Made by a program: the position numbers and the translations under genes. A stretch of 64,000 nucleotides of DNA from Neoarius graeffei (Eukaryota; Chordata; Actinopteri; Siluriformes; Ariidae), in NCBI RefSeq assembly GCF_027579695.1, contig NC_083569.1, positions 77,053,149-77,117,148 of the forward strand, read 5' to 3'. Below the pieces are notes generated by a model. That model was given only the letters and a program-made list of their open reading frames with translations. It did not search any database and was not told where the DNA came from. This document shows, piece after piece, positions 2,258 to 55,716 of the stretch (position 1 is its first letter; each line of letters begins with the position of its first letter).

Positions 2258-2393
2258 GGGGTGGGTTTCCCAAAAGCATCGTAGCACAAAGATCATCATT
2301 TTAAATGGTAGTGCGAGCATCACAATGAACCCTCTCTCTCCTAGTTAAGATGCTCTTAGCGTTAGGAGGCTTTTGGGAAACCCAGCCCAAAAC
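2258..2393. mobile_element. Short foldback MITE
   Basis: About 135 bp with terminal inverted repeats. The left end reads GGGTGGGTTTCCCAAAAGC and the right end carries its complement, GCTTTTGGGAAACCCAGCCC. The body is non-coding. It lies immediately before the LINE fragment. Confidence 0.65.
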
Positions 2394-2404
2394 AGTTCTA
2401 TGGT

Positions 2405-4415
2405 GTGTGTGTGCAGGGCATGCATGAACATGTGTTTTGCCTAAAGACGGGAATTGATGATTTTAAACATGATTCCAGTAAATTCTATGCCGTATTTCTG
2501 GACTTCCGTGATGCGTTCGGCACCCTGCCCCATAGCGTAATGCTACATGCGCTAAAAGAAATACATCTCCCCCAGGCTTACGTAAACATTATTACAGATG
2601 TCTACAGATCATCCTTCACCCAGGTGATCTGTGGAAAGGCCCTTACTGATCCAATCTCATTGGAAGTAGGGATTAAAACAGGCTGTCCCTGGAGCGCCAT
2701 CAACTTTGTTTTGGCCATTGATAACTGGCTGAAATGGATGGGCCAGTGCGCACCTGAAGGGGTGTGCTCACCAAGTCCAGTACAGGGATACGCAGACGAC
2801 GTACAGATTGCCTCAAGACATGAGTCAGTCATACAACACATGCTCACTTGCACGGAACATTTTTTGTTGTGGTCAAAGCTTCAGGTTAAGCCCACTAAAT
2901 GCGCTGTTTTTTATGAGAGGCGCAGCGGAGGAAACCGCTGGTATCAGTCGCAACGCGACAAACCACCAGCCTTTTCATTACTACAGCAACCACTACGAGT
3001 GTACTCGCGCAATGAAACCTACACCTACCTCGGCCATCAATTCAGTGTCGCAGGCGACTGGGAACATCAACAGTCAGAACTCATCAGCAAGTACACTCGT
3101 AGATTGCAACTCATAGACTCAGCCCCCCTACCCGTTATGTTCAAAGTACAAGCCATTCGAGAAATAGCCCTGTCCAAAATTCAACACCTTTTTGCAAATC
3201 TTCATCTCCCACAAAAAACCCTCACTGAACTCAATAACATAACTGTCCAAACTGTAAGACAATGGTTCGGGCTAAACACACACTCAACCAGGGACATACT
3301 TTTTCAGTCTAAAAGGAAGGGGGGGGCTGGGAGTACCCAACATCGAATGGATCTACACCGCTTCCAGAACCAGCCACCTGCTCAACATGCTACACAGTGA
3401 CGATCTACAGATCCGAGAAATGGCCCGGGCTTCATTATTTCAACACCTAAAGCGACGGAAGATTCCCGTTGCGCATGATGCCGACGCTCAATTTCTAGGA
3501 TTCCAGGTGAAGAGCAACGGTAAACTGGATATTAGAGCAACCGGATTTGGTGTGAGGTCAGACTGGATGGATCTAAATGATCTTTGCATCTGCACAGGAA
3601 TACATCTGCGATGGGGCAAACTAGACGGCACAAAAATTACACCCGATGACAATATAATCACAGACCCACTCATCTACCCATGCGCAACTTATGCGCAAGG
3701 CGACGGTGAGCAAGAGCTGCCCGCGAAACATGCGCGGGCCTTCATCCTCCAAATGAAGCTGTCAGAGAGCGCACAGCACTGGGCCAGTCTAAAGCTGCAA
3801 GGGAAATTGGCGGGTTTAGCCTTTGCAGATCATGCGTTGTCACACTCTGTGCTCTCTAACTGCTCCGTTGGTGAGGACATATTAATGTTTACCATCAAAG
3901 CCCGCCTCCAAGTCCTCCCAACGAAGTATAACTTGGCCACCTGGTATCCCCATAATCATGACCCACACTGCATCCTTCACTGTTCTACTAGGGAAAATGA
4001 AACAACTGCCCATATCTTTAATGGCTGTAGTTTTTATAAAGGACTCTACATTGTAAGACATGACCGACTGGTTGACCTGATCACAGAGAGCATTAAAGAC
4101 ATTCTAGATGCAACTACAAATATACATAAACACAGTGCGGTGCAGATCAACTGGTTTAATACAGAAAATCATGACAATGTTCAATTGGATAATCTCCCAA
4201 ACACTCCAGATATTACCATCATTGATGAAACAAACAGAACAGTAACCATTGTTGAAATAGGCTGCTCTTTTGATTTATATATGGACACTTGTTTTAATGC
4301 CAAAATGTTGAAGTACCAGCCACTTCTTGAATCACTCATGGGTCTTGGGTATAACTGCAAATTAATTGTTCTTGTATTTGGGAGCCTTGGACATATACAT
4401 AAACTGGTCATGTGA
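2405..4415 (+). pseudogene. 5'-truncated non-LTR retrotransposon ORF: reverse transcriptase plus restriction-like endonuclease
   Basis: This is the C-terminal half of a LINE polyprotein, broken into two frames (2405-3400 and 3387-4415). The first frame has reverse transcriptase: an AFLDFRDAFG-like catalytic block near its residues 30-40 and a YADD box near 128. The second frame ends with a Cys/His knuckle (C-x3-C-x9-H-x4-C spacing near residues 195-215). After this comes a PD...VEIGCSFD...K.LKYQPL region, which fits the PD-(D/E)XK endonuclease of site-specific R2-like LINEs. The break falls in a G-run near 3322-3330, where a one-base indel separates KRKGG from its continuation. N-terminal reverse transcriptase motifs are missing, so the copy is truncated and dead. 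The exact clade is uncertain. Confidence 0.8.
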
Positions 4416-8583: not shown

Positions 8584-9478
8584 ATATATATAAAATCCAT
8601 ATCTTTCTCAGATCTTGCATCAAGGACATGTATGTGTCCTCATGAGGGTTTTTTTCCCCCCCCACTGACTGACCCTTAAGTCGATCTGGGTATTCTTTCG
8701 GGAGCCATAATTGCGTCCACATCTTTCAGAAAATGGCACATGTGTTTTGAATTAAGTGCCAAATGCCTCAGTCTCCCAGCACCAATAAATTGTTTGCAGC
8801 CTCACTCAATTAGTAGTGAAAGATTTGACAGAGCGGGAGGGGTGCTGTGCGTCAGAAAGCCTCTAGTGGAGAACTGGAGGTGCTGGATTAGAGCAAACAA
8901 AAGAAATCGATTCAAATCGTATATATTTGGTGCCTAAGATGGATAAATGCACTTTTTACACCAGTGTGATGAGACACGCCATCCTCCATCACCTAAAAGA
9001 CAAAAACTTGCTCTGTGTCCATTTCTACAGGATAGAACATGAACTAACTGAACACAGGATTAACCAGATGTTCCAGTGGAAATCGAAGTCATTCCCTTCA
9101 AGCTGGGACTTATAGGAAAGTGGTTCATGAACAGGGCACACTGGTGACTCACTTGGCATAATGCTGCGAAAGTCCCTACAAACATGAAGTTCCTTAAAGC
9201 AATTGATGAGTCACACAGCCACGTTTTCTGCATGAAGAAATGATTGCCTTGCTTTGACACATTTATGGTAACAGTAATGAAGACCTTAACTAAAAACTGC
9301 CTACTGCTTTTGCCACTGAGCCCAAACATATTATTTCAAAAGCGCTGATCTGAACATTATCGGAGTCAGCAAAACGAGCCGGCTGTCGATAAACAGGCCT
9401 GGTGACGGCATGCGTCGGCTTTGCGGGTTGCGTAATGGAGCTCTTGTGCTTCTTAACCACTTCCAGATGTAGACTCAC
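8584..9478. other. Presumed tnfsf11 intron; no exon recognised
   Basis: This lies downstream, on the minus strand, of the stalk exon. Small open frames on either strand show no TNF-homology motif. The next exon is expected below this point or off the window. Confidence 0.35.
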
Positions 9479-9628
9479 CTTAGAGATGTAGGCTTTGATG
9501 CCTTCAGCCAGTTTGATGCAGGATTCTCCTAAGAGCTGGGCTAGGTCCTCGGGGATATCCCGGTTTTTATCCAGGGCATTGAGCAATCCCAGACATCGCA
9601 GCTCTTCTGTTACTCCTTGGCTCTTCAC
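9479..9628 (-). CDS. tnfsf11: TNF ligand stalk exon (tnfsf11, exon 2)
   Basis: A 150-nt, 50-codon internal exon in phase 0 at both ends. The acceptor reads ATTGACAG before 9628 and the donor is AAG|GTGAGT after 9479. It encodes VKSQGVTEEL through KAYISK, with two cysteines (RCLGLL and ESCIKL) spaced like those in the stalk exon of human RANKL (HCIYRIL and DSCRRIK) and TRAIL. It would join the 65-codon start exon in frame. The stalk lies outside the cell between the membrane anchor and the receptor-binding TNF domain. The TNF-homology domain itself is absent from the sequence to the left, so the 3' exons probably lie outside the window. RANKL is preferred over TRAIL because AKAP11 is the neighbour. 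Confidence 0.72.
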
Positions 9629-9965
9629 CTGTCAATGCGCCAATCACAGTAAGGTTTAAATAATCAAGCTGAGTTTATTATAGTTTGTCCAAAACGATTC
9701 TTATAATTGATACAAATTTTTTTCAGTGAGCTCTGTAGAATATTTGATGATAAATTTATATATACTGTATATATTTGCCTGCAACATGCAGAGCACACTC
9801 ATCAAATCACACTTATTTTTTTCCTTAGAACTTTCACTCCTTGGCTCTTCACCCTCCATTACACCAACCTCAGAGACGTTTCACACATCAGGCTGCCGTT
9901 CTTATTGTTTGACAAAAAGACTTTTTCACTTCTTTTTATTCACCGGTCAAATACACCTCACACTT

Positions 9966-10520
9966 TATTCTATCACATTCCCTGGATACAAGCAATTGCG
10001 CGCTCTGATTGGCTACTCTACTACTAGGATATCAGCCCATATACCATGAGTTGAGAAAAACAAAATGGAGGAGCACATTAAGTCAGATATATCACTTTAT
10101 CAGGTATTTAAAAGAAACAGAAATGGCTAAGTAAAAGAAAAGTGTCTTTACTTAAACCAACCGAGGATGAAATGAAAACTCGACTCGAAAACAAAACCCC
10201 CAAAATACAAAAAAAGGCAACAAAATATGTAAAGTATTTGAGCGCAAGAATGTATCTTTTTATTTTTCAAGAATTATTATTATTATAGCAATTTTCACAC
10301 ATTGCTCCTGTCACTTCACCAGTTTGTTCACATTCTAAGCGGAAATTATTTTGTCGTCTGTTTTGTATAAAGTTTTTATTGATCAAATTTGCAAAAAATA
10401 AAAATGCTCCGTGTTTCAAAATCCAGTGAACGTGGATAGAATAAAAGTTATTCCACTCAATCTTGTCGTTCATGGTTTATCAGTGCATATACGACTGGAT
10501 TTTGTGGAATAACTGTTAGA
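9966..10520 (+). mobile_element. Dispersed element X, copy 1
   Basis: About 560 bp shared with copies at 14826-17490, 50787-53830 and 57346-58028. Diagnostic blocks are GCGCTCTGATTGGCTACTCT near the left and TTTTGTGGAATAACTGTTA at the right. Short inverted ends of the form TTATTC...GAATAA suggest a DNA transposon. It is non-coding and I cannot assign a superfamily. Confidence 0.55.
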
Positions 10521-10657: not shown

Positions 10658-11026
10658 CTCATCTCTCATCTCATTATCTGTAGCCGCTTTATCCTGTTCT
10701 ACAGGGTCGCAGGCAAGCTGGAGCCTATCCCAGCTGACTACGGGCGAAAGGCGGGGTACACCCTGGACAAGTCGCCAGGTCATCACAGGGCTGACACATA
10801 GACACAGACAACCATTCACACCTACGGTCAATTTAGAGTCACCAGTTAACCTAACCTGCATGTCTTTGGACTGTGGGGGAAACCGGAGCACCCGGAGGAA
10901 ACCCACGCGGACACGGGGAGAACATGCAAACTCTGCACAGAAAGGCCCTCGCCGGCCACGGGGCTCGAACCCAGGACCTTCTTGCTGTGAGGCGACAGCG
11001 CTAACCACTACACCACCGTGCCGCCT
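10658..11026 (-). mobile_element. Full-length tRNA-derived SINE
   Basis: Same family as the SINE at 7324. The flanking 11-bp duplication CCACATGTCAT is exact (10647-10657 and 11027-11037). Relative to its siblings it lacks one short CACTCACATT block in the body. Confidence 0.9.
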
Positions 11027-11098
11027 CCACATGTCATATTAATTGGAATGTAGTTTTATGCCGGATGCCGCAACTTTCTTGCTGCAACCCTCCTATTT

Positions 11099-11260
11099 CT
11101 GCATGTCTTTGGACTGTGGGGGAAACCGGAGCACCCGGAGGAAACCCATGCGGACATGAGGAGAACATGCAAACTCCACACAGAAAGGCCCCCGGGCTCG
11201 AACCCAGAACCTTCTTGCTGTGAGGTGACAGTGCTAACCACTACACCATCGTGCCGCCCC
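11099..11260 (-). mobile_element. SINE fragment (head and first body segment only)
   Basis: The sequence runs from CTGCATGTCTTTGGACTG to GTGCCGCCC. This keeps the tRNA-like head and the part of the body next to it but lacks the 3' half and tail. It lies only about 70 bp from the complete SINE at 10658-11026. Confidence 0.8.
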
Positions 11261-14151: not shown

Positions 14152-15339
14152 TGTATAACATGGATTGGAAGTAAAATATACAGTAAGGTGCTATAAAATC
14201 AGCAGCAGTAATATGCCAGTTGTAGGGATGCAAGTGTGGGGTCCAGAAAGGGTGAGTGAGGATTTCTGATCTCAGCGAGAGTAGCAGGAAATGAGGAACA
14301 ATGCTCTAGTGTTACTCCTGGTTTCTGGAGCTGGGGGAAGAGTGGAGTGGACCTGCCACTGCTCAACTTTATGCTTCACTCAACATATCGCTACTTTTTG
14401 GGGAAGGATTAAAAAGAGAAACCGGTCATGTAACTTAAAGCTGTGCCAGGATTCCCCCCCACACACACACACACGGTCTCTCACACACTCTCAATTTGCC
14501 TCCTTGCCTCTCGATCATCCTGGGTCTTTGTCAGTGTGTGAATTATTTTGTTGTTGTTGTTGTTTTTTTCTAATTCCACCTGTGACGTCAGAAAGAAACA
14601 GGACTCATCAGGGTTTGCGGGGAAAAGCTGTTGAGCTCGTTTCTGTTCCAGCTCGTCTGCTTGGCCTCAGCCTGGGAGAGAGCAGGTTGTCTGAGCAGGC
14701 CTGACAAGCCCCTGGTTATTTACTTTACAAGGAAAAAGCATTTGAAGCCCTTTTTTCTACTCCAAGTAAATCTGTCAGTGTTAATAGTCCATCATTAATA
14801 ATCCCCTTTCAAGGATAATAACTATTATTCTGTCCACATTCACTGGATATGAGCAATCGTGCGCTCTGATTGGCTACTCTACTACTAGACTATCAGCTCC
14901 TATACCATGAGTAGAGAAAAACAAAATGGCGGCGCGTGTTGCTGAACCAGCCGAGGACGAAATAAAAACAAACCCCCCCAAAAATACAAAAAAGCAACCA
15001 AGTATGGAATGAAAGTATTTGATGGTAAGATCTTTTTTTTTCAAGAATTATTATCATCGCATTTTTCACACATTGCTACTGTCATTTTGCCGGTTTGTTT
15101 ACATTCTAAGTGGAAATGATTTTGTCGGACGTTTTGTATAAAGTTTTTATTTATCGAATTTGCAAAAAAATAAAAATTAAAAACGCTCTGTTTCTCAAAA
15201 TCCAGTGAATGTGGATAGAATAAAACAGTTATTCCACTCAATCTTGTCGTACATGGCTTACAATGGTGCTTGAAAGTTTGTGAACCCTTTAGAATTTTCA
15301 ATATGTCTGCATAAATATGACCTAAAACAACATCAGATT

Positions 15340-15717
15340 GGCGGCACGGTGGTGTAGTGGTTAGCACTGTCGCCTCACAGCAAGAAGGTCCTGGGTTCGA
15401 GCCCCGGGGCCGGCGAGGGCCTTTCTGTGTGGAGTTTGCATGTTCTCCCCGTGTCCGCGTGGGTTTCCTCCGGGTGCTCCGGTTTCCCCCACAGTCCAAA
15501 GACATGCAGGTTAGGTTAACTGGTGACTCTAAATTGAGCGTAGGTGTGAATGTGAGTGTGAATGGTTGTCTGTGTCTATGTGTCAGCCCTGTGATGACCT
15601 GGCGACTTGTCCAGGGTGTACCCCGCCTTTCGCCCGTAGTCAGCTGGGATAGGCTCCAGCTTGCCTGCGACCCTGTAGGACAGGATAAAGCGGCTAGAGA
15701 TAATGAGATGAGATGAG
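15340..15717 (+). mobile_element. Full-length tRNA-derived SINE (reference copy for the family)
   Basis: 378 bp, bounded by the exact 13-bp duplication ACAACATCAGATT (15327-15339 and 15718-15730), which fixes the family's ends. It begins GGCGGCACGGTGGTGTAGTG, with A-box-like TGGTGTAGTGGTTA and B-box GGTTCGAGCCC. The conserved body contains a TCAGCCCTGTGATGACCTGG block typical of fish SINE/LINE tails. It ends in GATGA repeats. Confidence 0.93.
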
Positions 15718-16035
15718 ACAACATCAGATTTTCATAAGTCAAGTCAACTTTGTCAAATATGCTATACATGCTCGACATACAGCACAGATGAAATTTCAGT
15801 CCTCTCTGACCCACGGTGCAAACAGCCAATGCAATAAATAAAAAATAGAATAATTGAAATAAACAATATAAACAAACACTCATATATAAGTGTTTATATA
15901 CAAGTCCTAAAAGTAGATAAAGAGAACCCAGTTAAACAAATGAGAAAAAAATATTATACTTGGTCATTTATTTATTGAGGAAAATGATCCAATATTACAT
16001 ATCTGTGAGTGGCAAAAGTATATGAACCTTTGCTT

Positions 16036-17049
16036 TCAGTATCTGGTGTGACCCCCTTGTGCAGCAATAACTACAACTAAATGTTTCCGGTAACTGTTGA
16101 TCAGTCCTGCACACCGGCTTGGAGGAATTTTAGCCCGTTCCTCCGTACAGAACAGCTTCAACTCTGGGATGTTGGTGGGTTTCCTCACATGAACCGCTCG
16201 CTTCAGGTCCTTCCACAACATTTCCATTGGATTAAGGTCAGGACTTTGACTTGGCCATTCCAAAACATGAACGTGATTCTTCTTTACCCATTCTTTGGTA
16301 GAACGATTTGTGTGCTTAGGGTCGTTGTCTTGCTGCATGACCCACCTTCTCTTGAGATTCAGTTAATGGACGGATGTCCTGACATTTTCCTTTAAAATTT
16401 GCTGGTATAATTCAGAATTCATTGTTCCATCAATGATGGCGAGCCATCCTGGCCCAGATGCAGCAAAACAGGCCCAAACCATGATACCACCACCACGTTT
16501 CACAGATGGGATAAGGTTCTTATGCTGGAATGCAGTGTTTTCCTTTCTCCAAACATAACACTTCTCATTTAAACCAAAAAGTTCTATTTTGGTCTCATCT
16601 GTCCACAAAACATTTTTCCAATAGCCTTCTGGCTTGTCCACGTGATCTTTAGCAAACTGTAGGCAAGCAGCAATGTTCTTTTTGGAGAGCAGTGGCTTTC
16701 TCCTTGCAACCCTGCCATGCACACCATTGTTGTTCAGTGTTCTCCTGATGGTGGACTCATGAACATTAGCCAGTGTGAGAGAGGCCTTCAGTTGCTTAGA
16801 AGTTACCCTGGGGTCCTTTGTGACCTTGCTGACTATTACACGCCTTGCTCTTGGAGTGATCTTTGTTGGTCGACCACTCCTGGGGAGGGGAACAATGGTC
16901 TTGAATTTCCTCCATTTGTACACAATCTGTCTGACTGTGGATTGGTGGAGTCCAAACTCTTTAGAGATGGTTTTGTAACCTTTTCCAGCCTGATGAGCAT
17001 CAACAGCGCTTTTTCTGAGGTCCTCAGAAATCTCCTTTGTTCGTGCCAT
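16036..17049 (-). pseudogene. Tc1 transposase with a single premature stop
   Basis: A 337-codon DD34E transposase reading from ATG at 17049 (MARTKEISEDLRK) to the stop at 16036. The N-terminus is a paired-like helix-turn-helix region (HQAGKGYKTISKEFG, then QSTVRQIVYKW). Catalytic residues are visible in [15 protein letters not shown] and NPMEMLWKDL, with 34 residues between the second Asp and the Glu. An in-frame TAA at 16363-16365 (codon 229) is the only disruption I see; the frame is otherwise open on both sides. It would cut and paste its own element at TA sites. The stop lies before the second catalytic Asp, so this copy should be inactive. Confidence 0.9.
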
Positions 17050-17838
17050 GATACACTTCCACAAACATGTGTTGTGAAGATCAGACTTTGATAGATCCCT
17101 GTTCTTTAAATAAAACAGGGTGCCCACTCACACCTGATTGTCATCCTATTGATTGAAAACACCTGACTCTAATTTCACCTTCAAATTAACTGCTAATCCT
17201 AGAGGTTCACAAACTATTGCCACTCACAGATATGTAATATTGGATCATTTTCCTCAATAAATAAATGACCAAGTATAATATTTTTGCCTCATTTGTTTAA
17301 CTGGGTTCTCTTTATCTACTTTTAGGACTTGTGTGAAAATCTGATGATGTTTTAGGTCATATTTATGCAGAAATATAGAAAATTCTAAAGGGTTCACAAA
17401 CTTTCAAGCACCACTGTATAGCCAACTCGGCGCTATGCGCCTCGTCAGCTATCAGCTCATGTAGTACTCGATTTCGTGGAATAACTGTTAATTGTATAAT
17501 TCTACAATATGTAACTGTACCCTGTAAAGGATATCTATTTCAGTATTGTTTTGTTTCTTCAAATGAAGCGTTGAAGTGCAAGTTGTAAACAAGTGCCTTT
17601 CTTCTTCTTGTTATCTTGTTATTTCAAAGTATTACGTCTTTATTTCAGCGTTATAACTCTTAATTTCAACTTAAGTCATTATTTCGGTATATTATACCAT
17701 TACTTTGACCTATACATTATAAAACAGCCTACACTCTATCAGTAAGGCTAAATGACTGACTATTAGCTTATAAATCAAATTCAGTACGCTGCTTGCCAGA
17801 CAGTAAGCAAGCCAGATGTTGCTTAAGTGGAATATATA

Positions 17839-22795: not shown

Positions 22796-23276
22796 AATAA
22801 TGATAATGTTATTGTGTCATTTTTTTAAAATACAATGTCATTTCAATACTGAGTAAATCAACACAGTACAATACAAATATGATTCATTTATGTAATAATA
22901 ATATATTTTATTTAAGGTGCCTTTCAGGGCACTCAAGGTCACTTCACAATACACATAAACGACAATAAAAAGAGCAAAAAGACAACAATATAAATGCAAT
23001 AAAATCAGAAATCAGCAGTAGTGGATGTACTATAGATATAGCATTTGATACAGAAGAAGTGCATACTGTCACTTTGAAGGTGAGCTGTAAAATGTCTAAA
23101 AATGTATAAATACTAGAATACAAAATGAAACTATGTACAGATTTGGGTGTCAGTAACACACTGAGTGTCAGTTGTCTTCCCTGTCATTAATCTAGACTTT
23201 TTGTTTCAGTCTTGGAAAAAGTTGAAGAAGGAATGCACAGAAGATGCATCTAAGAACTGAAAGCCATGGTGCTCAC

Positions 23277-23471
23277 CTGGGACAGGGACATGTTCAGGTA
23301 GAGGAAGAGTCCAGTGGTGGAGGCGATCTGCAGCACCACCACCACGATCACCACCATGGCGAGCCACAGCTTGGAAGGAGACTCTTTGCGGCCGCTCGCC
23401 GGCACCATCATGTAGGTAGTGGACTCGCTGCTGACCGAGCGGAAGTAGTCCTGGTTGGGCTGAGTGGCCAT
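23277..23471 (-). CDS. tnfsf11: TNF ligand start exon: cytoplasmic tail and membrane anchor (tnfsf11, exon 1)
   Basis: A 65-codon exon starting at ATG 23471 (MATQPNQDYFRS) and ending at the donor CAG|GTGAGC (23277/23276). The layout is a type II membrane protein: a short polar cytoplasmic tail (residues 1-35), then a hydrophobic anchor at about 36-58 (LWLAMVVIVVVVLQIAS...LFLYL), then the first extracellular residues. The DYFRS stretch recalls the DYTKYLRG tail of human RANKL. The next exon (9479-9628) is also phase 0 and continues the stalk. RANKL acts at the cell surface or as a shed trimer on the receptor RANK. AKAP11 upstream in the same orientation supports tnfsf11; TRAIL (tnfsf10) is the main alternative. 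The open frame extends upstream of this ATG without another Met near it. That extension is CT/GA-rich and is taken as 5' UTR. Confidence 0.75.
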
Positions 23472-23956
23472 GGCATTCCTGGGCTCGAGTGACGGCCGGG
23501 TGAAACTAGGCGTGTGTGTGTGTGTGTGTGTGTGGCTCACTGAGCTGGCTGTGGTGGAGGAGGGCCAGGCGGAGACTTTCCTTCCTTCCTTCCTTCTTTC
23601 TTTTTCTTTCTTTCCTTCTTTCTTTCTTCTCACTCCGGGTTTCTTGGAGAGTGAAGATTCTGGGCGAGTCCCGAACACGGGTCGTGTCCCAAATCACCCC
23701 CTCCTCCTGACACGTGCGCGCTGCGATCGATACCCAAACGCGCTTTGTGCTCCCTACTGAGTGCACTAAAGTGACGAACAGGGAGGTGTTTGGGATTGAG
23801 GCAGAACTTTTGGAAACTGAGGATGGGGATGTGTTTAACCCCTTTTTCTGTTGTGAGAAACTTTCTTTTTCTACAAATGTTTTATTGAACTTCCTTTTAC
23901 ATCTTCTTATGATTTATACACTGTCTGAGATAAGTGTTCCACATTTTGTAACATAG
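23472..23956 (-). promoter_or_regulatory. tnfsf11 5' UTR and proximal upstream region
   Basis: About 485 bp lie between the start codon and the SINE-head array. It contains a (TG)n run at about 23513-23534 and a polypyrimidine tract at about 23579-23632, which is purine-rich on the sense strand. No TATA box or defined start site was identified, so the promoter call is positional. Confidence 0.4.
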
Positions 23957-26900
23957 ACGGTGGTGTAGTGGTTACTGTCGCCTCACTGTAAGAAGGTTCT
24001 GGGTTCGAGTCCAGTGGCGGACGGGACCCTTTCTGTGTGGAGTTTGCATGCTCTTCTACAGTCCAAAGACATGCAGGTTAGGCTAATTGGTGGCGTAGTG
24101 GTTACTGTGGCCTCACAGTAAGAAGGGTGTGGGTTCGAGCCCAGTGGCTGACAGGAGCATTTTTGTGTCGAGTTTGCATGTTCTTCTACAGTCCAAAGAC
24201 ATGCAGGTTAGGCTAATTGGTGGCACGGTGGTGTAGTGGTTAGCACTGTCGCCTCACTGTAAGAAGGTTCTGGGTTCGAGTCCAGTGGCGGACGGGACCC
24301 TTTCTGTGTGGAGTTTGCATGTTCTTCTACAGTCCAAAGACATGCAGGTTAGGCTAATTGGTGGCGTAGTGGTTACTGTGGCCTCACAGTAAGAAGGGTG
24401 TGGGTTCGAGCCCAGTGGCTGACAGGAGCATTTTTGTGTCGAGTTTGCATGTTCTTCTACAGTCCAAAGACATGCAGGTTAGGCTAATTGGTGGCACGGT
24501 GGTGTAGTGGTTAGCACTGTCGCCTCACTGTAAGAAGGTTCTGGGTTCGAGTCCAGTGGCCGACGGGAGCCTTTCTGTGTGGAGTTTGCATGTTCTTCTA
24601 CAGTCCAAAGACATGCAGGTTAGGCTAATTGGTCGCACGGTGGTGTAGTGGTTAGCACTGTTGCCTCACAGTAAGAAGGGTCTGGGTTCAAGTCCAGTGG
24701 CTGACGGGAGCCTTTTTGTGTGGAGTTTGCATGTTCTCCTACAGTCCAAAGACATGCAGGTGAGGCAAGTTGGTGTCACGGTGGTGTAGTGGTTAGCACT
24801 GTCACCTCACAGTAAGAAGGGTCTGGGTTCGAGCCCAGTGGTCGACGGGAGCCTTTCCGTGTGGAGTTTGCATGCTCTTCTACAGTCCAAAGACATGCAG
24901 GTTAGGCTAATTGGTGGCACGGTGGTGTAGTGGTTACTGTCTCCTCACAGCAAGAAGGTTCTGGGTTTGAGCCCAGTGGCCGACGGGAGCCTTTCTGTGT
25001 GGAGTTTGCATGCTCTTCTACACTCCAAAGACATGCACGTTAGGCTAATTGGTGTTACAGTGGTGTAGTGGTTACTGTCACCTCACAGTAAGAAGGGTCT
25101 GGGTTTGAGCCCAGTGGCCAACGGTAGCCTTTTTGTGTGGAGTTTGCATGTTCTCCTACAGTCCAAAGACATGCAGGTTAGGCTAATTGGTGTCACGGTG
25201 GTGTAGTGGTTAGCACTGTCGCCTCACAGCAAGAAGGGTCTGGGTTTGAGCTCAGTGGCCGATGGGAGCCTTTCTGTGTGGAGTTTGCATGCTCTTCTAC
25301 AATCCAAAGACATGCAGGTTAGGCTAATTGGTGGCATGGTGGTGTAGTGGTTACTGTCTCCTCACAGCAAGAAAGTTCTGGGTTCGAGCCCAGTGGCGGA
25401 CGGGAGCCTTTCTGTGTGAAGTTCGCATGTTCTCCTACACTCCAAAGACATGCAGGTTAGGCTAATTGGTGTCACGGTGGTGTAGTGGTTAGCACTGTCG
25501 CCTCACAGCAAGAAGGTTCTGGGTTCGAGCCCAGTGACGGACGGGAGCCTTTCTGTGTGAAGTTCGCATGTTCTCCTACACTCCAAAGACATGCAGGTTA
25601 GGCTAATTGGTGTCACGGTGGTGTAGTGGTTAGCACTGTCGGCTCACAGCAAGAAGGTTCTGGGTTCGAGCCCAGTGGCTGACGGGAGCCTTTCTATGTG
25701 AATTTCGCATGTTCTCGTACACTCCAAAGACATGCAGGTTAGGCTAATTGGTGTCACGGTGGTGTAGTGGTTAGCACTGTCACCTTACAGCAAGAAGGTT
25801 CTGGGTTCGAGCCCAGTGGCGGACGGGAGCTTTTCTGTGTGGAGTTTGCATGTTCTCCTACAGTCCAAAGACATACAGGTTAGGCTAATTGGTGGCACGG
25901 TGGTGTAGTGGTTAGCACTGTCGCCTCACAGTAAGAAGGTTCTGGGTTCGAGCCCAGTGGCTGACGGGAGCCTTTTTGTGTGGACTTTGCATGTTCTCCT
26001 ATAGTCCAAAGACATGCAGGTTAGGCTAATTGGTGTCACGGTGGTGTAGTGGTTAGCACAGTCACCTCACAGCAAGAAGGTTCTGGGTTCGAGCCCAGTG
26101 GCGGACGGGAGCCTTTCTGTGTGAATTTCGCATGTTCTCGTACACTCCAAAGACATGCAGGTTAGGCTAATTGGTATCACGGTGGTGTAGTGGTTAGCAC
26201 TGTCGCCTCACAGCAAGAAGGTTCTGGGTTTGAGCCCCGTGGCCGATGGGAGCTTTTCTGTGTGGAGTTTGCATGTTCTCCTACAGCCCAAAAACATACA
26301 GGTTAGGTTGATTGGTGGCACGGTGGTGTAGTGGTTCGCACTGTTGCTGCACAGTAAGAAGGTTCTGGGTTCGAGTCCAGTGGCTGATGGGAGCCTTTTT
26401 GTGTGGACTTTGCATGTTCTCCTACAGTCCAAAGACATGCAGGTTAGACTAATTGGTGGCACGGTGGTGTAGTGGTTAGCACTGTCGCCTCACAGCAAGA
26501 AGGGTCTGGGTTTGAGCTCAGTGGCTGAAGGGAGCCTTTCTGTTTGGAGTTTGCATGCTCTTCTACAGTCCAAAGACATGCAGGTTAGGCTAATTGGTGT
26601 TACGGTGGTGTAGTGGTTAGCACTGTCGCCACATGGTAAGAAGGTTCTGGGTTTGAGCCCAGTGGCTGATGGGAGCCTTTCTGTGTGGAGTTTGCATGTT
26701 CTCCTACAGTCCAAAGACATGCAGGTTAGACTAATTGGTGGCACGGTGGTGTAGTGGTTGGCACTGTCGCCTCACAGTAAGAAGGTTCTGGGTTTGATTC
26801 CAGTGGCCAATGTGAGCCTTTCTGTATGGAGTTTGTATGCTCTTCTACAGTCCAAAGACATGCAGGTTAGGCTAATTGGTGGCGTAGTGGTTACTGTGGC

Positions 26901-29865
26901 CTCACAGTAAGAAGGGTCTGGGTTCGAGCCCAGTGGCTGACAGGAGCATTTTTGTGTCGAGTTTGCATGTTCTTCTACAGTCCAAAGACATGCAGGTTAG
27001 GCTAATTGGTGGCACGGTGGTGTAGTGGTTAGCACTGTCGCCTCACTGTAAGAAGGTTCTGGGTTCGAGTCCAGTGGCCGACGGGAGCCTTTCTGTGTGG
27101 AGTTTGCATGTTCTTCTACAGTCCAAAGACATGCAGGTTAGGCTAATTGGTGGCACGGTGGTGTAATGGTTAGCACTGTTGCCTCACAGTAAGAAGGGTC
27201 TGGGTTCGAGTCCAGTGGCTGACGGGAGCCTTTTTGTGTGGAGTTTGCATGTTCTCCTACAGTCCAAAGACATGCAGGTGAGGCAAGTTGGTGTCACGGT
27301 GGTGTAGTGGTTAGCACTGTCACCTCACAGTAAGAAGGGTCTGGGTTCGAGCCCAGTGGTCGAGGGGAGCCTTTCTGTGTGGAGTTTGCATGCTCTTCTA
27401 CAGTCCAAAGACATGCAGGTTAGGCTAATTGGTGGCACGGTGGTGTAGTGGTTACTGTCTCCTCACAGCAAGAAGGTTCTGGGTTCGAGCCCAGTGGCCG
27501 ACGGGAGCCTTTCTGTGTGGAGTTTGCATGCTCTTCTACACTCCAAAGACATGCACGTTAGGCTAATTGGTGTTACAGTGGTGTAGTGGTTACTGTCACC
27601 TCACAGTAAGAAGGGTCTGGGTTTGAGCCCAGTGGCCAACGGGAGCCTTTTTGTGTGGAGTTTGCATGCTCTTCTACAGTCCAAAGACATGCAGGTTAGG
27701 CTAATTGGTGGCACGGTGGTGTAGTGGTTACTGTCACCTCACAGCAAGAAAGTTCTGGGTTCAAGCCCAGTGGCCGACGGGAGCCTTTCTGTGTGGAGTT
27801 TGCATGTTCTTCTACAGTCCAAAGACATGCAAGTTAGGCTAATTGGTGTCACGGTGGTGTAGTGGTTAGCACTGTCGCCTCACAGCAAGAAGGTTCTGGG
27901 TTCGAGCCCAGTGGCGGACGGGAGCCTTTCTGTGTGAATTTCGCATGTTCTCGTACACTCCAAAGACATGCAGGTTAGGCTAATTGGTATCACGGTGGTG
28001 TAGTGGTTAGCACTGTCGCCTCACAGCAAGAAGGTTCTGGGTTTGAGCCCCGTGGCCGACGGGAGCTTTTCTGTGTGGAGTTTGCATGTTCTTCTACAGT
28101 CCAAAGACATGCAGGTTAGGCTAATTGGTGTCACGGTGGTGTAGTGGTTAGCACTGTCACCTCACAGTAAGAAGGGTCTGGGTTCGAGCCCAGTGGTCGA
28201 CGGGAGCCTTTCTGTGTGGAGTTTGCATGCTCTTCTACAGTCCAAAGACATGCAGGTTAGGCTAATTGGTGGCACGGTGGTGTAGTGGTTACTGTCTCCT
28301 CACAGCAAGAAGGTTCTGGGTTCGAGCCCAGTGGCCAACGGGAGCCTTTCTGTGTGGAGTTTGCATGCTCTTCTACACTCCAAAGACATGCACGTTAGGC
28401 TAATTGGTGTTACAGTGGTGTAGTGGTTACTGTCACCTCACAGTAAGAAGGGTCTGGGTTTGAGCCCAGTGGCCAACGGGAGCCTTTTTGTGTGGAGTTT
28501 GCATGTTCTCCTACAGTCCAAAGACATGCAGGTTAGGCTAATTGGTGTCACGGTGGTGTAGTGGTTAGCACTGTCGCCTCACAGCAAGAAGGGTCTGGGT
28601 TTGAGCTCAGTGGCCGATGGGAGCCTTTCTGTGTGGAGTTTGCATGCTCTTCTACAGTCCAAAGACATGCAGGTTAGGCTAATTGGTGTCACGGTGGTGT
28701 AGTGGTTAGCACTGTTGCCTCACAGCAAGAAAGTTCTGGGTTCGAGCCCAGTGGCCGACGGGAGCCTTTTTGTGTGGACTTTGCATGTTCTCCTACAGTC
28801 CAAAGGCATGCCGGTTAGACTAAATGGTGTCACGGTGGTGTAGTGGTTAGCACTGTCGCCTCACAGCAAGAAGGTTCTGGGTTCGAGCCCAGTGGCCAAA
28901 GGGAGCCTTTCTGTTAGGAGTTTGCATGCCCTTCTACAGTCCAAAGACATGCAGGTGAGGCTAATTGGTGGCACAGTGGTTACTGTCTCCTCACAGCAAG
29001 AAGGTTCTGGGTTCGAGCCCAGTGGCTGACGGGAGCCTTTTTGTGTGGAGTTTGCATGTTCTCCTACAGTCCAAAGACATGCAGGTTAGACTAATTGTTG
29101 GCATGGTTGTGTAGTGGTTACTGTGGCCTCACAGTAAGAAGGTTCTGGGTTCGATCCCAGTGGCCAATGGGAGCCTTTCTGTGTGGAGTTTGCATGCTCT
29201 TCTACAGTCCAACGACATGCAAGTTAGGCTAATTGGTGGCATAGTGGTTACTGTGGCCTCACAGTAAGAAGGGTCTGGGTTCGAGCCCAGTGGCTGACAG
29301 GAGCATTTTTGTGCGGACTATGCATGTTCTTCTACAGTCCAAAGACATGCGGGTTAGGCTAATTGGTGGCACGGTGGTGTAGTGGGTAGCACTGTCGCCT
29401 CACAGCAAAAAGGTTCCGGGTTCGAGCCCAGTGGCTGACAGGTGCCTTTCTGTGTGGAGTTCGCCTGTTTTCCTACAGTCCAAAGACATGCAGATTAGTC
29501 TAATTGGTGGCACGGTGGTGTAGTGGTTACTACTGTCGCCTCACACTACGAAGGTTCTGGGTTCAAGCCCAGTGGCCAACGGGAGCCTTTTTGTGTGGAG
29601 TTTGCATGCTCTTCTACAGTCCAAAGACATGCAGGTTAGGCTAATTGGTGGCACGGTGGTGTAGTGGTTAGCACTGTCGCTTCATAGCGAGAAGGTTCTG
29701 GGTTCGAGCCCAGTGGCTGACAGGATCCTTTTTGTGTGGACTTTGCATGTTCTTCTACAGTCCAAAGACATGCAGGTTAGGCTAATTGGTGGTGCAGTGG
29801 TTAGCACTGTTGCCTTAAAGTAAGAAGGTTCTGGGTTCGAGCCTAGTGGCCGACGGAAGCCTTTC
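23957..29865 (+). repeat. Tandem array of SINE-head units (about 141 bp, roughly 40 copies)
   Basis: Head-to-tail copies of the tRNA-like head plus first body segment of the local SINE, from GGCACGGTGGTGTAGTGG to GACATGCAGGTTAGGCTAATTGGT. Unit starts at 24493, 24634, 24775 and 24916 are 141 bp apart. A common variant lacks AGC after GTGGTT, giving 138 bp. A shorter one lacks ACGGTGGT. Most units keep an A-box-like TGGTGTAGTGGTTA and a B-box such as GGTTCGAGTCC or GGTTCGAGCCC. The SINE 3' body and tail are absent throughout. The array begins about 485 bp upstream of the tnfsf11 start codon and runs away from the gene. Confidence 0.95.
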
Positions 29866-30335
29866 TTTTTTTTTTAAAATCAATTCATATGCAATACAAT
29901 TACACAAAACAATTATAATACAATTATACAAAAAATTAGAATTCAAATACAACACCGAATTAAAAATTAAGTGAAAAAACAAAATTAACAGTAAAGAATA
30001 ATGTGTATATTTAGATGTCTGTGTGTGTGTGTGTGTGTGTGTATAAGGAGTAGTACTGACTTACTGTTGGACCGGGGAGATGGAGGCTGGATCGCAGAGA
30101 AGGAGGGTTTCAGAGGAAATGAGTATTATTATCTTTATGTAGGTTAATAATAAGAGAAATAAGAATAGGGATAATTTGATTAACTGACTGATTATCCAGA
30201 TTGCCTGGGCACCCAAGTATGGCCACGGTGTCGTCCCGCCCCCGCACAAGATATACCACAATGAGACAGCAGAGGGAAGGCCCTGCGTGTTAACCAGCCC
30301 ACGGCCCATGGCCCAGGGCCCCCAGCACCCCCCAT
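29866..30335. other. Unclassified insert between the short-unit array and longer units
   Basis: About 470 bp unrelated to the array. An AT-rich left part begins with T10 and contains a (TG)n run at about 30019-30042. The GC-richer right part includes CCACGGTGTCGTCCCGCCCC. Open frames through it run into SINE sequence and are not credible. It may be an inserted retroposon, but no target duplication is clear. Confidence 0.45.
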
Positions 30336-31140
30336 TGGGTTTGAGCCCAGTGGACAACGGGAACCTTCCTGTGTGGAGTTTGCATGCTGTGCTACAGTCC
30401 AAAGACGTGCAGGTTAGGCTAATTGGTGGCTCTAAATTGACCGTATGTGTGAATGTGAATGGTTGTTTGTCTCTGTGTCAGCCCTGTGATGATGACGACA
30501 GGAACCTTTCTGTGTGGAGTTTGCATGCTCTGCTGAGGCCAAAGACATGCATGTTAGGCTAATTGGCGGCTCTAAATTGACCGTAGGTGTGAATGTGAAT
30601 GGTTGTTTGTCTCTGTGTCAGCCCTATGATGCTCGCTTCACAGCAAGAAGGTTCTGGGTTCGAGCTCAGTGGCTGACGGGAGCCTTTCTGTGTGGAGTTG
30701 CATGTTCTCCCCGTGCCTGTGTGAGTTTCCTTCACAGTCCAAAGACATGTAGGTTAGGCTCATTGGTGGCTCGAAATTGACCCTAAGTGTGAATGGTTGT
30801 TTGTCTCTGTGTCAGCCTGATGATGATCGCCTCACAGCAAGAAGGTTCTGGGTTTGAGCCCAGTGGCCGACGGAGGCCTTTCTGTGTGGAGTTTGCATGT
30901 TCTCCCCATGTCAGCGTGGGTTTCCTCCACAGTCCAAAGACATGCAGGTTAGACTAATTGGTGCCTCTAAATTGACCATAGGTGTGAATGTAAGTGTGAA
31001 TGGTTGTCTGTGTCTCTGTGTCAGCCCTGTCATGATTTGGTGACTTGTCCAGGGTGTACCCCGCCTCTTGCCCGTAGTCAGCTGGGATAGGCTCCAGCTT
31101 GCCTGCAACCCTGTACAGGATAATGGATAGATGGATGGAT
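30336..31140 (+). repeat. Longer SINE-derived units closing the array, ending in a SINE 3' tail
   Basis: Four partial units of about 170-180 bp each extend past the head segment into the body (GGCTCTAAATTGACCGTA, then GGTTGTTTGTCTCTGTGTCAG) before the head motif restarts. The last unit continues through the complete 3' body (GTCCAGGGTGTACCCCGCC, GGCTCCAGCTTGCCTGC) to a GGAT-repeat tail at 31120-31142. This suggests the array grew from within an ordinary SINE whose 3' end survives here. Confidence 0.8.
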
Positions 31141-31485
31141 GGACTTAATTGGGGTTATATGTCATGAATGTACTGTATTATAGTGGGACTGAGAATTCTA
31201 TATGGTTTACCAAGTTGTGATTGCATAAGTATTCATCCCACACTGCACTGAGACCCCTTAGTTTGGGGGTATTTTTTTATAGTAATATAAGTCATATAGT
31301 TCTGATACTTCTACCAGGAGCAGGTGTGGTTATATTAAAGTCATGTGACACTTTAACTGTATACAGGTGCACTTCTTCATACCATAGCCTGCAAGGGTCG
31401 TAGGGACACCACTGATGACACTCAGTCCATCATTGGTGTGTCTGGGGCATTTTAAACTTGGCAGAGCCCATCCCTTTCCAAGCTT

Positions 31486-44584: not shown

Positions 44585-44949
44585 CTTTCCATCCATCCAT
44601 CCATTATCTGTAATCGCTTATCCTGTGCAGGGGCACGGGCAAGCTGGAGCCTATCCCAGCTGACTATGGGTGAAAGGTGGGGTACACCCTGGACAAGTCG
44701 CCAGATCATTGCAGGGCTGATACATAGAGACAAACAACCATTCACACTCACATTCACACCTACAGTCAATTTGGAGCCACCAGTTAGCCTAACCTGCATG
44801 TCTTTTGGACTGTAGGAGAAACCAGAGGAAACCCACGCAGACACAGGGAGAACATGCAAACTCCACACAGAAAGGCCCCCGTCAGCCACTGGGTTCGAAC
44901 CCAGAACCTTCTTGCTGTGAGGCGACAGTGCTAACCACTGTGCTGCCCC
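44585..44949 (-). mobile_element. SINE with CCAT-type tail
   Basis: The head is at the right end (complement, GTGCTAACCACTGTGCTGCCC) and a CCAT-repeat tail is at the left. The 8-bp duplication CAAATATC flanks it (44577-44584 and 44950-44957). Part of the A-box region is deleted. Confidence 0.87.
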
Positions 44950-44993
44950 CAAATATCATTTTCGATTTGTAAATTATTTATTGATTGCATTGT

Positions 44994-51417: not shown

Positions 51418-53022
51418 CAACCCCGATTCCAAAAAAGTTGGGACAAATTACAAATTGTAAATAAAAACAGAATGCAATAATTTACAAATCTCAAAAACTG
51501 ATATTGTATTCATAATAGAAATATAGACAACATATCAAATGTCTAAAGTGAGACATTTTGAAATTTCATGCCAAATATTGGCTCATTTGAAATTTCATGA
51601 CAGCAACACATCTCAAAAAAGTTGGGACAGGGGCAATAAGAGGCTGGAAAAGTTAAAGGTACAAAAAAGGAACCGCTGGAGGACCAAATTGCAACTCATT
51701 AGGTCAATTGGCAATAGGTCATTAACATGACTGGGTATAAAAAGAGCATCTTGGAGAGGCAGCAGCTCTCAGAAGTAAAGATGGGAAGAGGATCACCAAT
51801 CCCCCCTAATTCTGTGCTGACAAATAGTGGAGCAATATCAGAAAGGAGTTTGACAGTGTAAAATTGCAAAGAGTTTGAACATATCATCATCTACAGTGCA
51901 TAATATCATCAAAAGATTCAGAGAATCTGGAAGAATCTCTGTGCGTAAAGGTCAAGGCCAGAAAACCATACTGGGTGTCCGTGATCTTCGGGCCCTTAGA
52001 CGGCACTGCATCACATACAGGCATGCTTCTGTATTGGAAATCACAAAATGGGCTCAGGAATATTTCCAGAGAACATTATCTGTGAACACAATTCACTGTG
52101 CCTTCCACCGTTGCCAGCTAAAACTCTATAGTTCAAAGAAGAAGCCGTATCTAAACATGATCCAGAAGCGCAGACGTCTTCTCTGGGCCAAGGCTCATTT
52201 AAAATGGACTGTGGCAAAGTGGAAAACTGTTCTGTGGTCAGACAAATCAAAATTTGAAGTTCTTTATGGAAATCAGGGATGTCATGTCATTCGGACTAAA
52301 GAGGAGAAGGACGACCCAAGTTGTTATCAGCGCTCAGTTCAGAAGCCTGCATCTCTGATGGTATGGGGTTGCATTAGTGCGTGTGGCATGGGCAGCTTAC
52401 ACATCTGGAAAGACACCATCAATGCTGAAAGATATCCAGGTTCTAGAGCAACATATGCTCCCATCCAGACGACGTCTCTTTCAGGGAAGACCTTGCATTT
52501 TCCAACATGACAATGCCAAACCACATACTGCATCAATTACAGCATCATGGCTGCGTAGAAGAAGGGTCCGGGTACTGAACTGGCCAGCCTGCAGTCCAGA
52601 TCTTTCACCCATAGAAAACATTTGGCGCATCATAAAACGGAAGATACGACAAAAAAGACCTAAGACAGTTGAGCAACTAGAATCCTACATTAGACAAGAA
52701 TGGGTTAACATTCCTATCCCTAAACTTGAGCAACTTGTCTCCTCAGTCCCCAGACGTTTACAGACTGTTGTAAAGAGAAAAGGGGATGTCTCACAGTGGT
52801 AAACATGGCCTTGTCCCAACTTTTTTGAGATGTGTTGTTGTCATGAAATTTAAAATCACCTAATTTTTCTCTTTAAATGATACATTTTCTCAGTTTAAAC
52901 ATTTGATATGTCATCTATGTTCTATTCTGAATAAAATATGGAATTTTGAAACTTCCACATCATTGCATTCCGTTTTTATTTACAATTTGTACTTTGTCCC
53001 AACTTTTTTGGAATCGGGGTTG
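51418..53022 (+). mobile_element. Tc1/mariner transposon C
   Basis: 1605 bp, ends CAACCCCGATTCCAAAAAAG and complement, flanked by TA. Same family as transposon B at 31868-33504. Confidence 0.93.
51781..52802 (+). pseudogene. Tc1 transposase with frameshifts
   Basis: The candidate start ATGGGAAGAGGATCACC is at 51781. The readable protein runs at 51875-52430 ([24 protein letters not shown], then [12 protein letters not shown]). It continues in another frame at 52432-52802 ([16 protein letters not shown], ending KGDVSQW). A 2-bp deletion near 52432 causes the shift: the sister copy has GAAAGGTATATCC where this has GAAAGATATCC. The first catalytic motif also has Asp-Lys instead of Asp-Glu after SD. 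The A-run near 51861 is one base short, as in transposon B. Confidence 0.9.
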
Positions 53023-54048
53023 TAGTTCCCTATTTATACAAATAGGAGTCATTCAGGATTCAGCCATGTTTTTGCTCGGCGTTAGCAAGTTAGAGGTTTT
53101 AGCTTTCTCCTGAAATGTTTTCTTTTATTTCTTCTTCCTCAGGGTAGTAAAACTCGCTTTCACTGTGAACTGTCGTTATCGCTATCCATGCCGCAAAATT
53201 AATGCTATTTTCCTGAGAAATGCTGGCAAAAATTTATAAGATTTTTGAAAATCTTATAAAAAAATCTTAGAAAAAAAGATAAATGTCGACAAAAAATGCT
53301 ACTATGTTTGTTGTTGTTGTGAACGAGCGAGTCGCCAGAGGTCCGTAACAGTGGTCCGTAACTGGGATCTGTATCGTAGGATACGGACCCGCTTGCCAGC
53401 CAATCAGAGTGCAGGATTTGATGGAAACTGGACCGCGAAAAAAATAAATTCTTATTATCAAATACTTTTATTCCATTTTTTTTTTGCTTTTTTTGTATTT
53501 TTTGGGGGTTTTGTTTTTGAGTAGAGCTTTTATTTTGTCCTCGGTTGGTTCAGCAAAACGCTCTGCCATTTTCTTCTTCAGGGTTTTTTTGGTGGTTGGC
53601 AAACCAACTTAAAGGTGCATTACTGCCACCGACTGGGCTGGAGTGTGGAACAGGAACTATGGGGGGGGGGGGTGAAGAGACAAGCTATTTCTGTTTCTTT
53701 TAAATACTTTATAACAAAGTGATATAACTGACTTGATGCACTCAGCCATTTTGTTTTTCTCTATTCACGGTATATGAGCTGATATCCCAGTCATAGAGTA
53801 GCCAATCAGAGCACGTTATATTTGTGTAGTTAATGGTTCTTCACTTCCTAAACAGGTTCTAATGAGAACCCTCTATTGCGCGCAGAACCTTCCAGTGTTA
53901 CACCAAATGGACAAACTGAATAACACTTTAGGGCCCTAGATTTAACATTTAACCTGCTTCTGATTCAGAGCATCAGTGGAAAAATCCAATATCAAAATTC
54001 ACATGTGGATTCCAGTTGGTGCTTAATTTTTATCAAAATGTTTCATAC

Positions 54049-55716
54049 CTGTTGCTGAATGTGTGTGTCAGTAAGGTCGATCTGTAACGTGGAAGCTCCC
54101 ATTTGAGACGCTACAGCCCACAGCAGGATACACTGCAGCTCCTGTGTATCACGGCAGAATGTTTCGGATATGAAGGCCCTCATTACAGCGTGTGATGCTA
54201 CTGAGGAACTCTGTCGATCTGAATTAACGGATATTTGTCTGCTTTTTAAGTGACAGTTTGAAGCTTCTCTTGTGGAGCACTTGAGCACTTCATGCACAAT
54301 CTTCTCAGCAAAAATGTGCTCTACTGTCCCTGTTCTGGAGTCAAGTGAGATATAATTAGTCTCTGATTCCACATTAGAGCTTCCATTGGTTTGGATTTGA
54401 TGGGAGTTTGTGATATGCAAACCCATATTTAAATATTGATCATTCCCTTGTTCCCATGGCACTGGTTCTGATGCTGGATCAGGTAGCTGTTTGCTTGTGG
54501 CATGTTGTAATGAATCAGTTCCAAGCTCAGAGAAAGCCTGGATCAGTGTGTCAGTGATTAATGTGCCAGCCATAGCTCTCAGAGCCTCCAGAGGAGGAAT
54601 ATCTGGGGTCGACTCTGACAATAAGGTATCACTCGAAGCTTGGGTTGTGTTCTCAAAATGAGATGGGATTTCTTGGCTTGTTCTGTCCTCTCTCTTGCTC
54701 CTCATAACCTCTGCTATAGATGTCATAATGAGCTCCTCTGCCAGGTGGTCAGCCAGGACCTGCACATCTCTGACGGGCGTTTCTATATTTCTATTACTGC
54801 CTGCTTGGGCTACAGTGATGCAGTGGACGATCTCTGCTGAGAGCTGTGCCGCATAGTCTGAAATCTCACTCTGAAACCTGTTTTCTTTTTCTGTGCCATT
54901 ATCTTCCCCAAGCTGTGAGCACGCTAGTGAGAGCGAACGTATCAACCGAACCATAAACTCTGATTTGTCTCCAGTGCTGTCAGTCATTTTGTCCTCCAAC
55001 AGAGATTGTTGATCTTTAGGGGTAGGTGGAGGGGTTGAAGGTAGGAACTCTTTAGCAAGACCACCTTTCAGCTTCCTGGTGAAGCTTGAACGGCTCTTCA
55101 TCATCTCTGGCAGTAATGGCGTACTTGGAGGAGCATCAGGGTAGTCAAGGGAGCCCAGATGGGCCATATCATCCAGAGTGGTGGGATTGATGGTCGATCT
55201 TCTGTGATAGCTATTATCTATTTCCATTGCAGATCCTTCTTCGTCACAGTCATGCATAGAGGAACAAAGGTAGGATGCAGGCTCACTGTAGATTTCTGGA
55301 TGTTCATCATATTTCCTACCAGCAGAGAAGCCATGCCTGGCTAGTTCTTCCAGTGCATTACTATAGATCTCAGCTGCTAGCCTCTTTGCTAGCTTTTCGT
55401 GATCACTCATTGTCCACCTGTTCACCTCACTTCTTTGACTGATGTCACCATCTTTAGTGGTCTGAGTGTCTTGGATCCTCACAGCTGCATCCAGTATGTC
55501 TTCAGATAACATCTCAGCAAAGTGGTTAACAACATCTGTCTGAACTGGCTTGGGTCCAAGAGCATTCTGATCCATGTAGTTCATCTTCACATCTGATCTC
55601 CTGCCTTGTAATTCATCGAAGGCACCGCTGAAAGTCTCCAGTGTCAAGAGAATCGAGGATGGATTATAGTGAGGTTGAGGATATGACTGGGTGTTAATCA
55701 CCACTTCTACTGAATC
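54049..55716 (-). CDS. akap11: A-kinase anchoring protein, large exon (AKAP11-like)
   Basis: A 1668-nt, 556-codon internal exon, phase 0 at both ends. The acceptor is TTTTCTAG before 55716 and the donor CAG|GTATGA after 54049. Near residues 191-233 it has APPSTPLLP, then TRKLKGGLAKEFLPSTPPPTP and SEFMVRLIRSLS. These parallel PPSTPLVP, KLKGELAKEFAPATPPSTP and EEFMLKLMRSLS in human AKAP11. Several amphipathic helices of the type that bind PKA RII are visible: FAEMLSEDILDAAVRI (66-81), LAKRLAAEIYSNALEEL (109-125), AAQLSAEIVHCI and FAEKIVHEVLK. The exon ends in ELQCILLWAVASQMG, like the LRIILQWLIASEA segment near the human C-terminus. It is much shorter than the human protein (about 1900 residues), so either exons are missing or this is a reduced paralogue. 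SPHKAP is a related alternative. AKAP11 tethers PKA and also interacts with GSK3 and PP1. Confidence 0.85.

Follow-up and report, generated by a model that had tools for sequence, protein, structure and literature searches.

Positions 23957-29866 of the window (the 64,000 nucleotides of Neoarius graeffei DNA analysed here) are occupied by a tandem array of 43 units, each consisting of a fragment of a SINE with a tRNA-like head. What is observed directly is that the units stand in tandem, that they come from a SINE, how their parts are joined and that blocks of them were later duplicated. The array is best read as a local SINE-derived satellite that would have grown from one SINE insertion upstream of a gene and is most likely neutral (probability roughly 0.78). 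The locus tells little about the neighbouring gene, probably tnfsf11. It is a clean fish example: the SINE termini at the two edges, the joins and the later block duplications are all still readable, so that the passage from dispersed repeat to satellite can be traced step by step at one site.

Structure of the array

Run over the whole window, Tandem Repeats Finder (TRF) reports the type A array with a period of 141, 42.6 copies and a score of 8789. The runner-up, with a 194-bp period at 30539-30990, scores only 661 and belongs to the same locus, so chance is no concern for the main array. When the array is cut behind the conserved TTGGTG, 43 pieces result, all but one of them complete, in agreement with the original prediction of about 40 head-to-tail units of about 141 bp. 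Most units (27) are 141 bp long, nine are 138 bp and five 130 bp; the first has 136 bp and the last, which is truncated, 75 bp. Pairwise identity among type A units averages 90.4%, with a minimum of 81.9% (gaps excluded), and alternating units are found among units 2-5. The limits first proposed hold for the array but fall short of the locus, in which SINE-derived sequence resumes at 30336-31143 with two other unit types.

Table 1. Features of the array, its locus and related sequences, with coordinates in the window
Feature	Position	Strand	Description
Probable first exon of a TNF-ligand gene, candidate tnfsf11	23250..23471	-	Frame from ATG 23471; identity inferred
Type A array	23957..29866	+	43 units, mostly 130-141 bp: SINE head (A box, B box) plus first body piece with internal deletion
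First type A unit	23957..24092	+	Begins ACGGTGG, about SINE position 7, at or very near the SINE 5' end
Block of units 4-9	24364..25192	+	Copy at 26882-27710 (units 22-27), 98.8% over 829 bp
Block of units 7-10	24776..25333	+	Copy at 28131-28688 (units 31-34), 99.1% over 558 bp
Non-SINE stretch, 469 bp	29867..30335		T-run at start; splits the SINE-derived region
Type B pieces (TRF 30353-30631, period 140)	30336..30632	+	SINE about 53-258 and 81-257
Type C, two pieces (TRF 30539-30990, period 194)	30633..31143	+	Start at SINE 31
Dispersed SINE copy nearest to the array unit (unit-matching part)	44776..44950	-	95.4% over 131 positions

SINE origin of the unit and its joins

Fifteen dispersed SINE copies were taken from the window for comparison, and a local consensus was made from 11 of them, leaving out copies 11252, 31655, 33825 and 60080, which are incomplete or cut short. 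The 141-bp unit corresponds to positions 5-107 of this consensus joined to positions 145-186, with overlapping ends at both joins, and is 87.5-95.4% identical to the 15 copies over the aligned part. This mapping bears out the view that the unit carries the tRNA-like Pol III head of a SINE. The composition originally proposed, the head and the first body segment only, stands for the head and fails in its simple form, as an internal stretch is missing from the unit.

The nearest dispersed copy, 44950, carries GGTTTCTCCTACAG and CTGGTGGC at the sites of the two joins of the unit, where the array has GCATGTTCTYCTACAG at the deletion join and TTGGTGGCACGG at the tandem (head-to-tail) join. Compared with this copy, the unit has lost 32 internal nucleotides flanked by TTCTCC direct repeats, a deletion with a 6-nt microhomology. 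Microhomology of at least 6 nt occurs in 0.17% of 174,728 random breakpoint pairs in copy 44950, a figure that is a rough yardstick only, because the breakpoint was picked after the data were seen. The head-to-tail join puts the body GGTGGC onto the SINE 5' end GGYGGC. Sharing at this join would amount to all 6 letters if the founder began with GGTGGC, as do two of the 11 distinct readable SINE 5' ends (copies 20301 and 43813; the repeat of the 5' end of copy 11019 counted once), and to 5 of 6 positions if it began with GGCGGC.

Among SINEs of fish with a tRNA-like head, the element presumably resembles such families as Mermaid/DANA (V-SINE) or AFC, which likewise combine this head with a body and a 3' region with short tail repeats. 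These names occur in the available part of PMC3747384. Five SINE strings of 22-28 nt have no occurrence in the literature texts searched. Exact patterns from the unit and the SINE have no match in collections of viral and prokaryotic contigs, a result uninformative on fish.

Remainder of the locus

The type A array stops in truncated unit 43, before the 469-bp stretch, of which the window holds no second copy apart from its GT repeat. Beyond it, type B consists of two pieces, each about 140 bp long, from which both the A box and the internal body stretch are missing. The type C pieces retain the internal stretch, and the last of them extends to SINE position 338 and includes a GGAT-like tail, with its end at about 31143. 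The locus as a whole thus has a SINE 5' end on the left and, on the right, a SINE 3' end and its tail, in a single orientation throughout. These ends bracket about 7.2 kb, which is SINE-derived apart from the 469 bases. A comparison of the two flanks gave no target-site duplication, their best common word being 6 nt long and out of place, so the single founding insertion is putative.

Duplicated blocks

Besides the two blocks given in Table 1, units 25-27 match units 31-33 at 99.0% over 417 bp, units 2-3 match units 4-5 at 99.3% over 270 bp, and units 16-17 match units 29-30 at 96.8% over 282 bp. The duplicated blocks, of two to six units, are thus 96.8-99.3% identical, compared with about 90% array-wide, which indicates that they were copied later onto an older array. 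Such duplications are compatible with unequal exchange, judging from their pattern.

Neighbouring gene

The minus-strand frame from ATG 23471 encodes a short membrane N-terminus. The array had been placed about 485 bp upstream of tnfsf11, and 485 bases do separate it from this putative first-exon ATG, a distance that runs to an ATG and not to a mapped start site. Pfam gives a weak, sub-threshold sterol-sensing match for the first-exon frame and none for the ORF at 9290-9631. The 23 kb below the ATG yielded no convincing exon for a TNF domain, nor did a motif scan of minus-strand ORFs of at least 40 amino acids give a TNF-domain match. Among ORFs of at least 25 amino acids below 23300, TNF-motif matches at 15044-15931 and 10270-10476 were judged to be chance.

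An AKAP-like ORF (54043-55716) lies upstream of the first exon on the same strand. Its SmAKAP match in Pfam (E 9.1e-05, 23.9 bits) is below the cut-off of 27, and a PDB search with it gave no match. The strands of mouse Akap11 and Tnfsf11 are taken in this comparison as we assume them to be. Akap11 is upstream of Tnfsf11 in mouse, according to the available part of PMC6872636. The gene beside the array is therefore probably tnfsf11, a name that is given on account of one exon and of an AKAP-like ORF placed as Akap11 is in mouse.

Relation to known satellites

The locus adds another case to a known kind, the SINE-derived satellites, of which those of squamates (sSats; Vassetzky et al. 2023, PMC10702118) are the closest to it. 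In the available part of that paper, sSats are described with a few to over 1200 monomers and a mean monomer similarity of 63-97% depending on the variant, and the authors were unable to say whether such satellites occur outside squamates. As here, their tandem units derive from part of a tRNA-headed SINE and are shorter than it, with a similar range of unit size and a similar degree of homogeneity. Alternating subvariants and a SINE terminus at the array edge, with both termini in minor variants, are described of them as well (PMC10702118). At least four head-to-tail middle monomers are expected of an sSat, as is a unit made of part of a SINE and shorter than the whole element; the present array has 43 units, and its unit is 141 bp long against a SINE of about 380 nt (length read off the consensus). 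Also expected of an sSat are a longer terminal unit that extends to a SINE terminus, monomers closer to each other than dispersed SINE copies are, with subvariants that alternate, and a presence at many, preferably subtelomeric loci. At the present locus a SINE 3' end lies at the right edge of the whole, while the type A array itself closes with a truncated unit, and alternation is seen among units 2-5. It differs from what is described of squamate sSats in its SINE family, its fish host and the two extra unit types at one locus.

OAX or satellite I of Xenopus and the Pol III tandem families of newts and frogs are likewise tandem repeats with a tRNA-like part; their link to SINEs is called unconfirmed in the same source (PMC10702118), whereas it is direct at the present array. 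Among fish, the complex satellite DNAs of Harttia catfish contain SINE- and tRNA-derived sequence, as here, but are described in the available part of PMC11955569 as mosaics of SINE/LINE and tRNA parts with intervening sequence, whereas the present units consist of SINE sequence only. A 5S/SINE mosaic tandem repeat is described from hagfish in a source available in part. Among the papers listed in searches of the open-licence literature there is no report of a fish sSat, the Harttia and hagfish cases being the nearest.

Pol III boxes and CpG decay

The A box occupies columns 7-17 of the unit and the B box columns 51-61. The array has 41 A-box and 28 B-box matches on its plus strand, forming 26 pairs with a spacing of 41 or 44 bp; the window outside it has 14 and 10 matches, respectively, on both strands. 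The canonical B box is missing from 15 of the 43 units, and TTTT is found within about 130 bases in 11 of the 26 pairs. The Pol III heads point away from the neighbouring gene, and any Pol III transcripts would run away from it.

Boxes that mattered should decay more slowly, and their CpG loss and divergence were therefore compared with the rest of the unit. The B-box CpG is lost in 14 of the 42 complete units, compared with 73 of 163 cases at the four other consensus CpGs (p=0.22; five gapped units were dropped at one of the four). Divergence of the B box is 5.8%, against a unit mean of 5.9%, and its non-CpG columns are 3.4% diverged against 4.7% for all non-CpG columns. The A box is 2.2% diverged, which places it at the 11th percentile among 131 windows, each 11 columns wide; of the windows listed, the least diverged is outside the promoter, around GTCCAAAGACA in the body. 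Because of block copying the units are not independent, so these tests of box retention are weak in both directions. CpG columns are 20.9% diverged, 4.4 times faster than the other columns (4.7%), and 67 of 87 CpG losses are to TG or CA. This pattern is as expected for methylated, unselected DNA.

ARAGORN (bacterial code setting) finds no tRNA gene in the window. The Rfam tRNA model has no match at the gathering threshold in the window, nor any at E up to 1 over 23900-31200. A functional tRNA array is accordingly rejected.

Proposed origin and alternative explanations

Beyond what is observed directly, we infer a single founding insertion, an order of events and neutrality. A SINE of a GGAT-tailed subfamily (like copy 44950) would have inserted upstream of the gene, and short direct repeats inside it may have been used for slippage or unequal exchange. 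The TTCTCC repeats would have led to the 32-nt deletion, and a tandem duplication would have joined the body GGTGGC to the SINE 5' end GGYGGC. Once two copies were present, unequal crossing-over and block duplication could have expanded the array to about 43 units, and other segments of the same element could have given the short type B and C stretches on the 3' side. The mapping of the unit with its overlapping joins, the microhomology, the identity of the blocks, the SINE ends at both edges and the CpG decay support this local birth; the lack of a target-site duplication, the 469-bp interruption and an A box better kept than average weaken it.

Rolling-circle amplification in place of unequal exchange would be expected to leave a similar array. 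The 141-bp unit might also have been born elsewhere and spread by rolling circle or exchange, the array being one locus of a dispersed SINE-derived satellite. In squamates such satellites can reach thousands of loci, with a unit common to most snakes (PMC10702118, available part), but the 32-nt deletion is in none of the 15 dispersed SINE copies of the window, TRF finds no SINE tandem in the window outside 23957-30990, and the pieces at 30336-31143 resemble leftovers of one local element, which makes this origin unlikely. An assembly artefact, with unit copy number or order wrong, is very improbable: block duplications are of the kind that would invite it, but no exact repeat inside the array exceeds 238 bp and the units are on average about 10% apart, so that reads of a few kb would presumably place them.

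A boundary that binds TFIIIC, or a Pol III-transcribed cluster affecting tnfsf11, would agree with the number of boxes and their regular pairing, and with the somewhat better than average preservation of the A box and of the B-box columns outside CpGs. In mouse neurons, genes near SINEs are controlled by TFIIIC bound to these elements (PMC3744447, available part). Against such a role, the B-box CpG is not lost at a significantly different rate from the others, over a third of the units have no canonical B box, fewer than half of the pairs have TTTT nearby, the decay suggests CpG methylation and transcription would be directed away from the gene. The TFIIIC or insulator role suggested originally is thus not clearly supported, with B-box divergence at the average, and we give it hardly any credence. 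Equally slight is the prospect that a lineage-specific cluster of putative TFIIIC sites shapes tnfsf11 expression, with copy number as a tunable dose. No sequence feature demonstrates that the array regulates the probable tnfsf11, and its position near the gene is a single case with no genome-wide control behind it.

Other elements in the window

At 10840-11252 on the minus strand, a SINE copy with a truncated 3' side (head 11252) adjoins a second copy (head 11019). The second carries ATGACATGTGG on both flanks, which indicates an adjacent insertion and not a tandem. Two overlapping ORFs in different frames at 2366-4415 match RVT_1 and, below threshold, zf-RVT in Pfam, respectively; on these matches they represent a LINE with a frame break. 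Of three Tc1-like transposase ORFs, the one at 32092-33045 matches DDE_3 in Pfam, and those at 51854-52802 and 16036-17127 were judged by eye.
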